Assembly: GCA_903825315.1 (NCBI GenBank)
Contig: CAIKAD010000002.1
Span: 186,001-250,000, forward strand
Origin: an uncultured Candidatus Peregrinibacteria bacterium
Lineage (GTDB): Bacteria; Patescibacteriota; Gracilibacteria; Peribacterales; Peribacteraceae
Direction: 5' to 3'
Length of the DNA stretch: 64,000 nucleotides
Shown: one piece after another, positions 5,717 to 60,543 of the stretch
Layout: each line of letters starts with the position of its first letter
Position numbering within the stretch: the first letter of the stretch is position 1
Made by a program: the position numbers and the translations under genes
The notes under the pieces: model-generated
What the model was told of the DNA's origin: nothing
Database searches by the model: none
What the model saw: the letters and a program-made list of their open reading frames with translations, nothing else

Positions 5717-5727
5717 TTATATCTAGT

Positions 5728-5814
5728 TGTTCTTTCAGAACATCGTCAAGGTTTTGAATGCGAGACAAGCATCCTGCGTCCCTTTTGGGCATAGGCTGCT
5801 TGTCTCATTCCGAG
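5728..5814 (+). promoter_or_regulatory. Conserved structured 5' leader, copy 1
   Basis: The leader begins with the hairpin TGTTCT-ttc-AGAACA (5728-5742), then the invariant block CATCGTCAAGGTTT. A second stem follows: GAGACAAGC (5762-5770) pairs perfectly with GCTTGTCTC (5798-5806) and encloses a small CCC/GGG hairpin. It ends in TTCCGAG. The two other copies (59261-59346 and 60179-60264) keep all stems, with A to G changes that turn A-U pairs into G-U pairs. About 90 nt more, including a GC-rich hairpin (CCCGGCGTTCCGGG), separate it from the start codon. Confidence 0.75.
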
Positions 5815-5903: not shown

Positions 5904-6587
5904 ATGTCACAAGACATGGTGCGTCAAGAAGTTGAGGAGTTCGGGAAGGATCACGGACTGATACACGAGATGATCGTGACGGGGCGCAAGGTCGGCGCTG
6001 GGCGGGCGTTCTACGCCTCGCTCACGCACAGTGAAGAGCTCTTCCGCCGCGTCGTCGCGATGGTCGAACAGGACCCCTTACAGGCAGCGCAGCACGCTCT
6101 GCTGGACGCAGTCGCGAAGGGGGTTACATTTGAGAACGGGGTCTACCGTTTCTTTGACCCCGGCACCCCGCTCATCATTCTGCGAGACATCCCGGTGATC
6201 CGCGAAAAGAAAATCATGAGCCGTCAGGAGTGGTACCAAGGCTACAACTGGGCTCAGCATGCGGATGTTCCGCAAGAGCGCCTCCTCCGCGTCCCCGTGG
6301 ACGGATCCTTCAACCTGGCCTTCTGGAATCAGAAGAAGCTCCTCACGAAGGGTGAAGCAGTGCCCTCGTCCCGCATCGTCGCCGCGTTCCTCGCCATCAT
6401 GGCGCTTTCGACCGGCAAGCGACTCCTGCCGGAACACTACATGCGCACGGCCGACACTGTCTCGGGCCGCGTAGACGTCGGCGAATTCCGTGCCGAAGGA
6501 TTTTGTGTCGGCATCTACTGGGATGACCGCTGCAACGTGTCCGTCGGTCTCGCCGCCGTCAATAAATCTCAAACCTTGGCCGCCTGA
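5904..6587 (+). CDS. Uncharacterised cassette protein, copy 1
   Basis: 227 residues, soluble, no signal peptide. The C-terminal part shares a pattern with the products at 58426-59199 and 59568-60122: a WY pair, then R-x-P-V-(P/D)-x-S, an F/Y-x-x-Q-x-x-LL stretch with GE-x-V, and a hydrophobic helix ending in LL. The N-terminal part (FGKDHGLIHEMI, EELFRRVVAMV) is specific to this copy. Similar short unknown proteins seem common in CPR genomes, but I cannot assign a function. The gene has its own promoter, the shared leader RNA and the shared terminator. GAAAGG about 13 nt before the ATG is a possible but weak ribosome binding site. Confidence 0.75.
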   Translation: MSQDMVRQEVEEFGKDHGLIHEMIVTGRKVGAGRAFYASLTHSEELFRRVVAMVEQDPLQAAQHALLDAVAKGVTFENGVYRFFDPGTPLIILRDIPVIREKKIMSRQEWYQGYNWAQHADVPQERLLRVPVDGSFNLAFWNQKKLLTKGEAVPSSRIVAAFLAIMALSTGKRLLPEHYMRTADTVSGRVDVGEFRAEGFCVGIYWDDRCNVSVGLAAVNKSQTLAA

Positions 6588-58246: not shown

Positions 58247-58351
58247 AGAGAATAGGAAGAATATGCAAATTGTACCCCGTAACAGCACTGTAGAAGAAAA
58301 TTGACTTGCATGGCTGCTGGAGTTTGATGCCCATTATATAAAAGGATAACC

Positions 58352-58387
58352 AAAAAGAACCCCCGCAAAACAATGTCGCGGAGGTTC
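58352..58387 (-). terminator. Terminator of cassette copy 2
   Basis: On the minus strand GAACCTCC-GC pairs with GC-GGGGGTTC, then TTTTT. Same stem as at 6612-6647 and 59496-59528. Confidence 0.88.
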
Positions 58388-58425
58388 AAGGCGTCGAGAG
58401 GGACAAGCCCTCAAGACTTCAAGGT

Positions 58426-59199
58426 TCAGGACTTCCGAGGAGGTACAGACGACGCCAGACCGAGGTCGCCGTAGCAGCCGTCATCCCAGTGGTCGTCGAC
58501 ATCAAACCCGTCGGAATCGAAGTTGCCGACGTAGACACGGTCGCCGTCCGAGCCCTTGTCTTGGCAGCGCACGTAGACATAAGGCAGCAGACGCTCGCGG
58601 TGCATAAGCCAGTAGAGGATGACCATGTAGATCACCTCGCAGGCAAACGGCACCTCCTCGTCCTTGAGGAGAGCGGTCTGCAGGTCGTAGGTCTTGCATC
58701 GGGACTCGGGCACCGGCTCCTTGCGGAGGAGATACCACCGGACACTCACCTTTTTGTCGTTGGCAAACGGCTCGCAGTTGTACCAGTCGGTGTCGTAGAA
58801 GGCGCTTTCGACAATCTCGCGAATTTCGTTCACAGAGAGAGCGCCACCTGCGACGAGGACGTGGGTGTCCTTGTACGCCTGGAGCGTCTCTTCGCTAAAC
58901 GGGATCTCCGCGAGCTGCGGTGCGGGGAGGGCGATACCGTAGCCCCTGCGCACCTCTTCCAAGCCGAGGAAGTTCTTGCCCATGATCGCACGGGCTTTGG
59001 CTTGGCTCTCGCTGTCGGGGATCGGGTCGCCAGTGACGGCACCAGCCTTCCAGAACGCCACGAGACGCTTGGCGAACGGTTGGTCACTGCGCAGGCGCTT
59101 GAGATCCTCTGGCGTAATGCCGAGATCCTCGAGAACCTTTAGCGTCTGGCAGACCTGCCCGAAGGTGGCCTTCCAGAGGCCACGGGTTGCGGTAGACAT
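58426..59199 (-). CDS. Uncharacterised cassette protein, copy 2
   Basis: 257 residues from the ATG at 59199, which has a perfect AAAGGAG 5 nt upstream. N-terminal helical part (FGQVCQTLKVLEDLGITPED, LRSDQPFAKRLVAFWKAG) has a pattern I recall from other CPR unknowns. The C-terminal half shares TDWY, R-x-E-PVPESRCKTY, Q-x-x-LL, DEEVP and WDDG with the other copies, and ends PPRKS. No catalytic motif known. It carries the full shared leader (59261-59346) and terminator. Confidence 0.75.
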   Translation of the reverse strand: MSTATRGLWKATFGQVCQTLKVLEDLGITPEDLKRLRSDQPFAKRLVAFWKAGAVTGDPIPDSESQAKARAIMGKNFLGLEEVRRGYGIALPAPQLAEIPFSEETLQAYKDTHVLVAGGALSVNEIREIVESAFYDTDWYNCEPFANDKKVSVRWYLLRKEPVPESRCKTYDLQTALLKDEEVPFACEVIYMVILYWLMHRERLLPYVYVRCQDKGSDGDRVYVGNFDSDGFDVDDHWDDGCYGDLGLASSVPPRKS

Positions 59200-59260
59200 C
59201 GAAGCTCCTTTGTCCCAAGGGGACACTAAGAACTCTTCCCGATGCGTCGGGGGCGGCTTT

Positions 59261-59346
59261 CTCGGAACGAGACAAGCACTCTATGCACGCAGAATGCGCA
59301 GGGCGCTTGCCTCATACCTAAACCTTGACGATGCTCTCAAAGAACA
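59261..59346 (-). promoter_or_regulatory. Conserved structured 5' leader, copy 2
   Basis: TGTTCT-ttg-AGAGCA hairpin, CATCGTCAAGGTTT, then GAGGCAAGC pairing with GCTTGTCTC (one G-U), enclosing GCGCA/TGCGT. It is 85/86 identical to copy 3 and keeps the stems of copy 1 through compatible base changes. Confidence 0.8.
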
Positions 59347-59495
59347 CAATCATAAAATATAACAAATGACAATATCTGTCTATGGATCGGAGACGGGCAC
59401 CAGGCTCATTACAATGCCGTAATCCAGGCCTATGTAGCACTGGAGAGTTGTTGGAGTAGTACTTCCACTACCCCGCATTGCGAGGACAGCATTAC

Positions 59496-59528
59496 AAAAG
59501 AACCCCCGCGCAATAAACGCGGAGGTTC
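59496..59528 (-). terminator. Terminator of cassette copy 3
   Basis: GAACCTCCGCG pairs with CGCGGGGGTTC, then TTTTG on the minus strand. Between this and the gene is the shared block ACCTTGAAGTCTTGAGGGCT. Confidence 0.88.
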
Positions 59529-59567
59529 AAGGCGTCTAGAAGGCGTAAGCCCTCAAGACTTCAAGGT

Positions 59568-60122
59568 TCAGGACTTCCGAGCGGCGGACACCCACACGAA
59601 CTCGTAAGGGAAGACGTCCCAGAAGCGGCTGTAGACGCGAACGCGACCCTCGTCGACGTCGAGTGCAACGCAGCGCTCGCCGGGGAGCACTTCGGCGCAC
59701 CGAGTCCAGTCGTTTTCGAGCAAGTCCTTACCTGATGTCTGCTTTAGGTGACAGAGGAGCACAGCGGCTGCAAGCGCGACCGGCGTGACCTCCTCGCCGG
59801 GGAGCAGGAGCTTCTTCTGCTCGGCGAAGTTCTTGCAGTTGCTGTATGGCACCGGCATGCGCACGCGGTAGATGCCGGGAGTCAACTTCGCCGTGTTCAG
59901 AGGGTACTTCATGTACCAGTCCTGAACACACATGAAGTTGTACATCACGACGGTCTCGCAGGTGCGCAGGTCTTGGAGCGACCACGCGCCGACGCGGATT
60001 ACCACCTCGCCGGGGGCGGGCTCGGGCAGCGGATCGCGGCTCTTCTCGCCGAAGCCGAGAATGGCGACTGCATCGTAGCTATAGAAGCTTGCATGCAACT
60101 TCTTCTGCTCAGAGATACTCAT
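59568..60122 (-). CDS. Uncharacterised cassette protein, copy 3
   Basis: 184 residues from the ATG at 60122, chosen because AAAGGAG lies 7 nt upstream (the frame is open further up). The N-terminus FYSYDAVAILGFGEKSRD is followed by a WSLQDLRTCETVV region. Then comes the shared part QDWY, YRVRMPVPYSNCKNFAEQKKLLL, GEEVTP, KDLL and TRC, ending AARKS. The end RKS and the bases after the stop are the same as in copy 2. Function unknown; the family members are strongly diverged in protein sequence while their leaders stay nearly identical. Confidence 0.75.
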   Translation of the reverse strand: MSISEQKKLHASFYSYDAVAILGFGEKSRDPLPEPAPGEVVIRVGAWSLQDLRTCETVVMYNFMCVQDWYMKYPLNTAKLTPGIYRVRMPVPYSNCKNFAEQKKLLLPGEEVTPVALAAAVLLCHLKQTSGKDLLENDWTRCAEVLPGERCVALDVDEGRVRVYSRFWDVFPYEFVWVSAARKS

Positions 60123-60178
60123 GACACACTCCTTTCGAGAGCTAGAGGAGAACCAGTTTGCCGCTGGCTTCGTGCTTT

Positions 60179-60264
60179 CTCGGAACGAGACAAGCACTCT
60201 ATGCACGCAGAATGCGCAGGGCGCTTGCCTCATACCGAAACCTTGACGATGCTCTCAAAGAACA
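60179..60264 (-). promoter_or_regulatory. Conserved structured 5' leader, copy 3
   Basis: Differs from copy 2 at a single position in 86. Upstream on the minus strand lies TTGACT with a TATTAT box 21 nt later, an unusually wide promoter spacing, or TAAAGT at 16 nt. Confidence 0.8.
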
Positions 60265-60387
60265 CCTTAATAATACTTTAATCTTAATTTGTATGTAGTC
60301 AAAGTTCTATGAGGATTATCGATCCCCTGGTAGCAAATTTTGCTAGTAACCCCGAACGTGCAGACCAATGTTTCCCCATTTCCTAAA

Positions 60388-60468: not shown

Positions 60469-60543
<75 letters not shown>

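Follow-up and report, generated by a model that had tools for sequence, protein, structure and literature searches.

The window, the whole 64,000-nt stretch of DNA that was analysed, carries two tandem cassettes on its minus strand, with copy A upstream and copy B following. Copy A opens with a leader block (60174–60265) that consists of a small hairpin 1 (TGTTCTTTGAGAGCA; 60250–60264, assigned from the fold and the alignment pairs), a linker that provides one strand of a candidate long-range helix (TCAAGGTTTCGG; 60235–60246, assigned from pairing tests and the message fold) and hairpin 2 (60185–60233, from fold and alignment). The long stem of hairpin 2 contains 20 modelled pairs, nine of which exhibit two-sided changes among relatives. 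The A coding sequence (59568–60122) specifies a type I target protein of the diversity-generating retroelement (DGR) type with 184 residues, and its last 40 codons form the variable region (59571–59690). The second strand of the candidate helix (59561–59572) includes the TGA stop codon and is followed by a small hairpin (GTC..GAC; 59534–59559, delineated by eye) and a terminator hairpin (59500–59528). A spacer that includes the promoter region of B (59348–59500) leads to copy B, in which the same elements recur on the minus strand: a leader block (59256–59347) with hairpin 1 (59332–59346), linker strand (59317–59328) and hairpin 2 (59267–59315), a coding sequence for a type II DGR-type target protein of 257 residues (58426–59199) with its variable region in the last 40 codons (58429–58548), a stop-region strand that again includes TGA (58419–58430), a small hairpin placed by eye (58393–58417) and a terminator hairpin (58357–58387).

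The leaders of A and B are identical at 91 of 92 positions, with zero identity directly upstream or past position 92, and the common block at the stop codon (CTCGGAAGTCCTGAACCTTGAAGTCTTGAGGGCTT) is identical at 35 of 35 nucleotides. Both likenesses had been claimed in an earlier note on this DNA and were borne out, on the minus strand. Its claim of a common terminator holds for the hairpin arms, which are mostly shared, but not for the loops, which differ. A third cassette, copy E, lies on the plus strand with a leader at 5726–5814 and a coding sequence for a type II protein of 227 residues at 5904–6587; the plus-strand copy at 5727 is presumably what the earlier note counted as copy 1. In E, the stop codon is shifted downstream, and the pairing strand is still found at 6570–6581. 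The first 25 nt of the leader have three matches in the window, compared with none in 100 dinucleotide shuffles. Throughout the genome (1.29 Mb, five contigs), seven cassettes were located: A, B, the tandem pair C and D, and E, F and G.

Some cassettes lie close to tRNA genes. Copies A and C, cassette G004b and a leader relic in G013 are each positioned ∼60–250 bp from one (window 60469–60543; L068:7668–7743; L080:4337–4412; L073:5946–6020). The relic retains hairpin 1 and the linker, hairpin 2 is absent, and a target ORF was not seen. Copies C and D carry a REP-like palindrome (CCTGCCCGTCCGTAG...GAAGGCGGGT) in their trailers; E has it in its 5′ UTR, and G029 at its end (L003:2326–2370; L005:1625–1650; L065, trailer of G029).

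Twenty-one leaders fold alike into hairpin 1, linker and hairpin 2, and 92.9% of the cells in their alignment are paired. Two-sided changes in the stems number 28, compared with 10.7 in shuffles (0/500), and sliding the model by one to three columns reduces pairing to 29–54%. The leader is predicted to be a structured RNA with covarying stems. In several cassettes, the Shine-Dalgarno sequence is enclosed in a small CUCC/GGAG hairpin. No Rfam family matched the leader above its gathering score, the window yielding three tRNAs only, and at E ≤ 5 nothing relevant was obtained in 58330–60350. A leader pattern search of 84,980 species genomes returned 14 records, 12 of which are titled Peribacteria, Peribacteraceae or Peregrinibacteria. 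By its kinship to these, the genome studied here belongs to the same group. A match in Erysipelotrichaceae and three in IMG/VR were rejected as chance (20–21 bits, hairpin 2 absent). Among 59 relatives, the leader model matched 20 genomes, all from the same family, and none of 23 genomes from other families. Within the family, 27 of 74 genomes match at E ≤ 1e-4, and 21 of these score at least 43 bits, a cut for the term ‘leader genome’ that was set after the match list was seen.

The A and B proteins share 25% identity over 174 aligned residues, with a best local match of 33% over 70. The weak protein conservation described in the earlier note is consistent with this value; what the note missed is that both proteins are homologous DGR-type targets with hypervariable ends. 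Pfam and NCBIfam gave no match above cut-off for any of the seven proteins of this genome, but BLAST matches connect these proteins with their relatives into one family of three types (our own grouping). The products of the leader cassettes contain 162–297 residues. In relatives, the same cassettes are found near a reverse transcriptase (RT) that matches RVT_1 and near a template repeat, and they are arranged divergently beside the RT in G011, G019 and G088. All 19 mismatches between the variable region and the template of G019 are located at template adenines. A scan that by design allowed only adenine mismatches detected template/variable pairs at six leader cassettes from five genomes (G019, G031, G028, G088a, G088b and G074) and also at DGR targets of the same family that have no leader. 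Changes at codon positions 1 and 2 relative to position 3 number 133:50 in the last 40 codons and 372:358 elsewhere (Fisher p 9e-8, from six non-overlapping pairs out of 12). In the trailers of A and B, a hairpin of inverted repeats also follows closely after the variable region, a likeness to DGR targets in position only. As judged from sequence, A and B are DGR-kind target genes with predicted hypervariable C-terminal ends. A predicted model of copy A (pLDDT 85.7) gave a best Foldseek E of 0.041 and a best VIA Z of 8.9, and most rows listed were C-type lectin domains with Z of 5.9–7.7; on these modest scores, copy A may have a fold like that of C-type lectins. The predicted model of copy B was poor (65.2).

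Of the 74 family genomes, 25 contain an RT at E ≤ 1e-15. In the genome studied here, PF00078 gave no match at E ≤ 1e-3, two RT protein queries gave none, and no template repeat that differs only at template adenines was found, neither in the genome nor in those of its stretches that the adenine-only scan covered. Judged by the assembly, which is 99.64% complete, all seven copies are orphan targets. The accessible part of Roux 2021 (PMC8144416) describes a DGR clade that is confined to Patescibacteria and has targets with no recognisable domains, and the domainless orphan proteins fit this description. A close DGR RT as the partner of every leader genome was rejected, since only eight of 21 have one.

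Further observations were made on the retroelements of the family. The G011 RT (L055:7540–8370) is probably dead, as it is missing the internal stretch in which the G005 RT (L132:140–1186) has its YxDD-type motif. DGR targets without the leader include tandem paralogues with CTTGA-rich trailers and fusions to an ATPase that we take to be MoxR-like (L128, L129, L130 and L133), and the motif that they share past the stop codon is CCTTGA or ACTTTG. The DGR of G015 (L137) is of another kind: its target looks secreted, and its template/variable pair spans 141 nt and has 22 differences, all adenine-only. The template RNA contains AAGGAAGT upstream of the template repeat, and this matches ACTTCCTT directly behind the repeat (L060, L061 and L212); for G031 and G028, the match is better than in almost every shuffle.

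At 99% identity, the A and B leaders stand apart from the other leaders of this genome, which are 60–93% identical. Over 210 pairs, leader identity and protein identity are weakly correlated (Spearman coefficient 0.38), and A/B is the extreme outlier (99% versus 25%). The closest pair, G035 and STF1_71, has one leader difference in 88 positions, compared with a dS of 0.22 and a dN of 0.032 in the protein body. In the pairs examined, leader divergence is similar to that of the replacement sites of the protein body and lower than most dS values, and it exceeds the replacement-site rate in some pairs, such as B–G029 and E–G011; on the question raised in the earlier note of whether leader and protein diverge at the same pace, the outcome is mixed. 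Of the explanations that the note had offered, selection on the RNA parts is supported by the covarying stems and by the G035/STF1_71 pair but is insufficient for A/B. Recent conversion or coding-part exchange is also needed, because the other leaders of the genome are so much less alike, and the note's conversion of flanks and cassette-like swapping of coding parts each hold in part. The A–B spacer is homologous to the C–D spacer, which points to a common ancestry of the two-cassette arrays. The encoded proteins differ, however, being of type I in D and of type II in B, and B has probably undergone an exchange of its coding part between retained flanks. A module swap is also visible at an N-terminus: in the G035 protein, residues 1–69 are similar to F and G025 and the remainder to G008. 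The A/B likeness appears to be explained best by coding-part exchange between retained flanks combined with flank conversion between A and B.

The earlier note overlooked a complementarity between the leader and the stop region. The linker complements the sequence around the stop codon of the gene it belongs to, 0.7–1 kb downstream, as in B, where TCAAGGTTTAGG faces CCTGAACCTTGA. In a first test on 22 of 25 cassettes (G004a, G004b and G004c were dropped because they have no usable linker), pairing with the own stop region averaged −18.5 kcal/mol, compared with −15.7 for cross pairs (0/20,000 permutations) and −11.3 for shuffled trailers. Of 1,358 windows of the coding sequences, 32 paired with the linker no less strongly than the own stop region did. 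The own trailers of A, C, D and STF1_71 rank 15th, 15th, 17th and 20th of 22, with a consensus trailer that is common to many cassettes. Six later cassettes from a wider family search gave an own mean of −17.2, and six of 720 permutations were as low; two of these trailers are identical over the part used, and for G031, whose reading frame is broken, the 3′ end of the gene region was used. G078b, a 46-bit match in front of a PPDK gene, stood outside this set, its gene running past the end of the stretch, and G073 (39 bits) stood outside the pairing tests.

The 12-nt registers of the 28 cassettes contain 268 Watson-Crick, 38 G-U, six A-C and 24 other pairs. The excess of G-U over A-C pairs has a binomial p of about 1e-6, counted over related rows that are not independent; with that limit, tolerance of G-U but not of A-C suggests a helix of RNA. 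The helix sequences diverge widely while complementarity is kept, as in G074 (TCAGGAAGTTTG), G075 (GGCAAAGTTCAG), G081 (GTTTCACAGTGT) and G022 (GGAGTTCAAG); in these four and in G003b, unrelated helix sequences occupy the same site. One A-C mismatch is found in the helix core of G011, G019 and G088a. The stop codon itself is contained in the helix in most cassettes, and the best pairing strand adjoins the present stop codon or lies at some distance from it in E, G008, G006, G003a, G003b, G022, nzgw389, G088b and G029. The complementarity between leader and stop region is specific and covarying by these sequence comparisons.

The minimum-energy fold of the whole message includes the helix in 15 of 17 messages (the exceptions are C and D) and in six of the six later ones. 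This fold is weak evidence by itself, because four of 18 whole-message folds with shuffled linkers still have more than nine expected pairs to the stop region. A search for general pairing between 5′ UTRs and stop regions over 60 ORFs of the window gave own and cross means of −19.5 and −19.7, with no tendency; it takes the best of many upstream windows and has little power, and A, B and E rank within the top nine of the 60 and are not outliers. A blind scan of hairpins with a TYHTTS-like loop yielded 165 candidates, 13 of which paired at ≤1% of shuffles (1.65 expected). These 13 comprise seven leader cassettes, the G020 gene and five others that may be chance. As a separate candidate, pairing of the stop region in trans with the template RNA was rejected, being mostly no better than in shuffles.

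Complementary strands at the two ends of a cassette could instead be inverted repeats in the DNA of a unit that is mobile or can be swapped, and the movement of coding parts between flanks, the patchy presence of the leader (21 of 74 family genomes at 43 bits) and the proximity of some cassettes to tRNA genes agree with such a unit. DNA repeats, however, would give G-U and A-C mismatches equally. In addition, the left strand is located between two covarying RNA hairpins within the transcript, and the same arrangement occurs on unrelated genes, which renders this explanation very improbable. It is also quite unlikely, though slightly less so, that recent gene conversion of the A/B flanks is all that occurred and that the complementarity is a by-product of conserved motifs. 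The abrupt ends of the 99% identical A/B leaders, against 60–93% for the others, and the CCTTGA motif after the stop codon of leaderless DGR targets are in line with conversion alone, but stem covariation in the leader reaches across genera, and coordinated change of leader and stop region is seen from genome to genome; local conversion could not give rise to this.

Elements similar to the leader are also observed on other genes. Weak leader matches are located upstream of FGGY carbohydrate kinase, Fae family, xylose-isomerase-like TIM barrel and PPDK genes. Leader-like 5′ hairpins before such carbohydrate or C1 genes of Peribacteria (L076:8829–8925; L218; L217; L216; L215; L211) possibly belong to a shared regulon. 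The gene behind the element in G001 and G002 is presumably a xylose isomerase and has no Pfam match. Four of ten such elements, chosen by leader similarity and not by pairing, pair with their own stop region (G002, G083, G020 and G085; 0–2 of 300 shuffles), and no window of their coding sequences pairs as well (0/29 to 0/150). The remaining six (G001, G009, G034, G060, G078b and G096) display no clear pairing with the own stop region, and the test on the set of ten gave 13/20,000. The leader/stop arrangement may extend beyond DGR targets. An unlikely but broader reading is that Peribacteria possess a general mRNA device, composed of a 5′ hairpin, a stop-pairing linker and a second long hairpin, that would sense completed translation and gate a closed-loop message on DGR-type and unrelated genes (FGGY-kinase-like, Fae-like and xylose-isomerase-like).

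The reading that we consider fairly likely is that the cassettes are orphan targets of the DGR kind, in which a helix between the linker and the gene's own stop region closes the message into a loop and controls its translation or stability, with recent conversion or exchange added at A and B. The transcript would start at or near hairpin 1, because conservation begins there and a promoter-like sequence directly precedes it. Situated between the two hairpins, the linker would then pair with ∼12 nt around the own stop codon and join both ends of a 0.7–1.1 kb message. We infer that the helix forms in cells and that translation or stability of the message is its regulatory target. A ribosome that arrives at the stop codon would have to open the helix, and the state of the leader would consequently report completed translation; this opening of the loop at the stop codon is an idea of our own. 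The near identity of the A/B flanks would reflect recent local conversion, or coding-part exchange, between the two cassettes.

A different function of the pairing would be in DGR retrohoming, with the helix presenting or masking the 3′ flank of the variable region. The paired strand is located just 3′ of the variable region, where a required DGR sequence is described in the available text of Guo 2011 (PMC3240598), and close RTs are enriched in leader genomes (8/21 versus 4/53, p 0.003). The enrichment does not extend to a count of any RT (10/21 versus 15/53, p 0.17), and the feature is also present on genes that have no variable region. Moreover, 13 of 21 leader genomes, including the one studied here, are without a close RT, the stop region mostly pairs with template RNA no better than by chance, and leaderless DGR targets exist in the same family. 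The same available text describes sequence upstream of the variable region of phage BPP-1 as dispensable. A homing role is improbable, and it is less likely than control of translation or stability because of the dispensable BPP-1 upstream sequence, the 13 genomes without a close RT and the shared feature on non-variable genes.

As a rival to this control, the helix could form but be simply repressive, as in type I toxin messages, with the full-length message staying inactive until trimming at the 3′ end. Precedents for this possibility are the long-distance 5′–3′ interactions of aapA3 and hok and the pairing of icaR, as presented in the excerpts of PMC6733600 and PMC3868564, and the small hairpin that holds the Shine-Dalgarno sequence in several cassettes is compatible with repression. 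We nevertheless regard simple repression as doubtful, if possible: the 5′ strand of the helix is located upstream of the Shine-Dalgarno sequence, with hairpin 2 and further UTR in between, and the products are proteins of 162–297 residues, not toxic peptides.

The targets and their leader persist in genomes in which the retroelement was not found, and the leader provides a handle on the expression of hypervariable DGR targets in a group that is known here from metagenome-assembled genomes alone. To our knowledge, bacterial 5′–3′ mRNA pairing has been described in single examples. In the open-licence literature, judged by titles and abstract openings, no description of such a leader or pairing was found. 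The pairing of the linker with the stop-codon region is the new element here; it covaries over 28 cassettes and mostly includes the stop codon in the helix, which makes a bacterial closed-loop message directly testable.

The cassettes are comparable to several known systems. In the BPP-1 DGR target site, inverted repeats form a hairpin shortly after the variable region, according to the accessible portion of Guo 2011 (PMC3240598); the hairpins of A and B are likened to it by position only, and in these two copies one such hairpin is also terminator-like. The aapA3 and hok type I toxin messages share a structured message with a long-distance 5′–3′ interaction, but in the excerpts of PMC6733600 they encode a small toxic peptide that is controlled by an antisense antitoxin, and the aapA3 interaction covers the Shine-Dalgarno region; the cassettes instead encode proteins of 162–297 residues with hypervariable ends. 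With the DGR targets of Patescibacteria, as far as the consulted sections of Roux 2021 (PMC8144416) describe them, the cassettes share a C-terminal variable region, a hairpin after it and the lack of recognised domains, and the relatives analysed here additionally share adenine-only template differences and a neighbouring RT. The genome studied here differs from those systems in that neither RT nor template was found, and the consulted sections do not mention a structured leader or a helix between leader and stop region. In icaR of Staphylococcus aureus, both ends of one bacterial message pair, as predicted for the cassettes. The 3′ UTR of icaR covers the Shine-Dalgarno sequence in the available text of PMC3868564, whereas in most cassettes a linker upstream of hairpin 2 would pair with a strand that spans the stop codon, and the cassettes, unlike icaR in that text, exhibit covariation of the pairing over a gene family.
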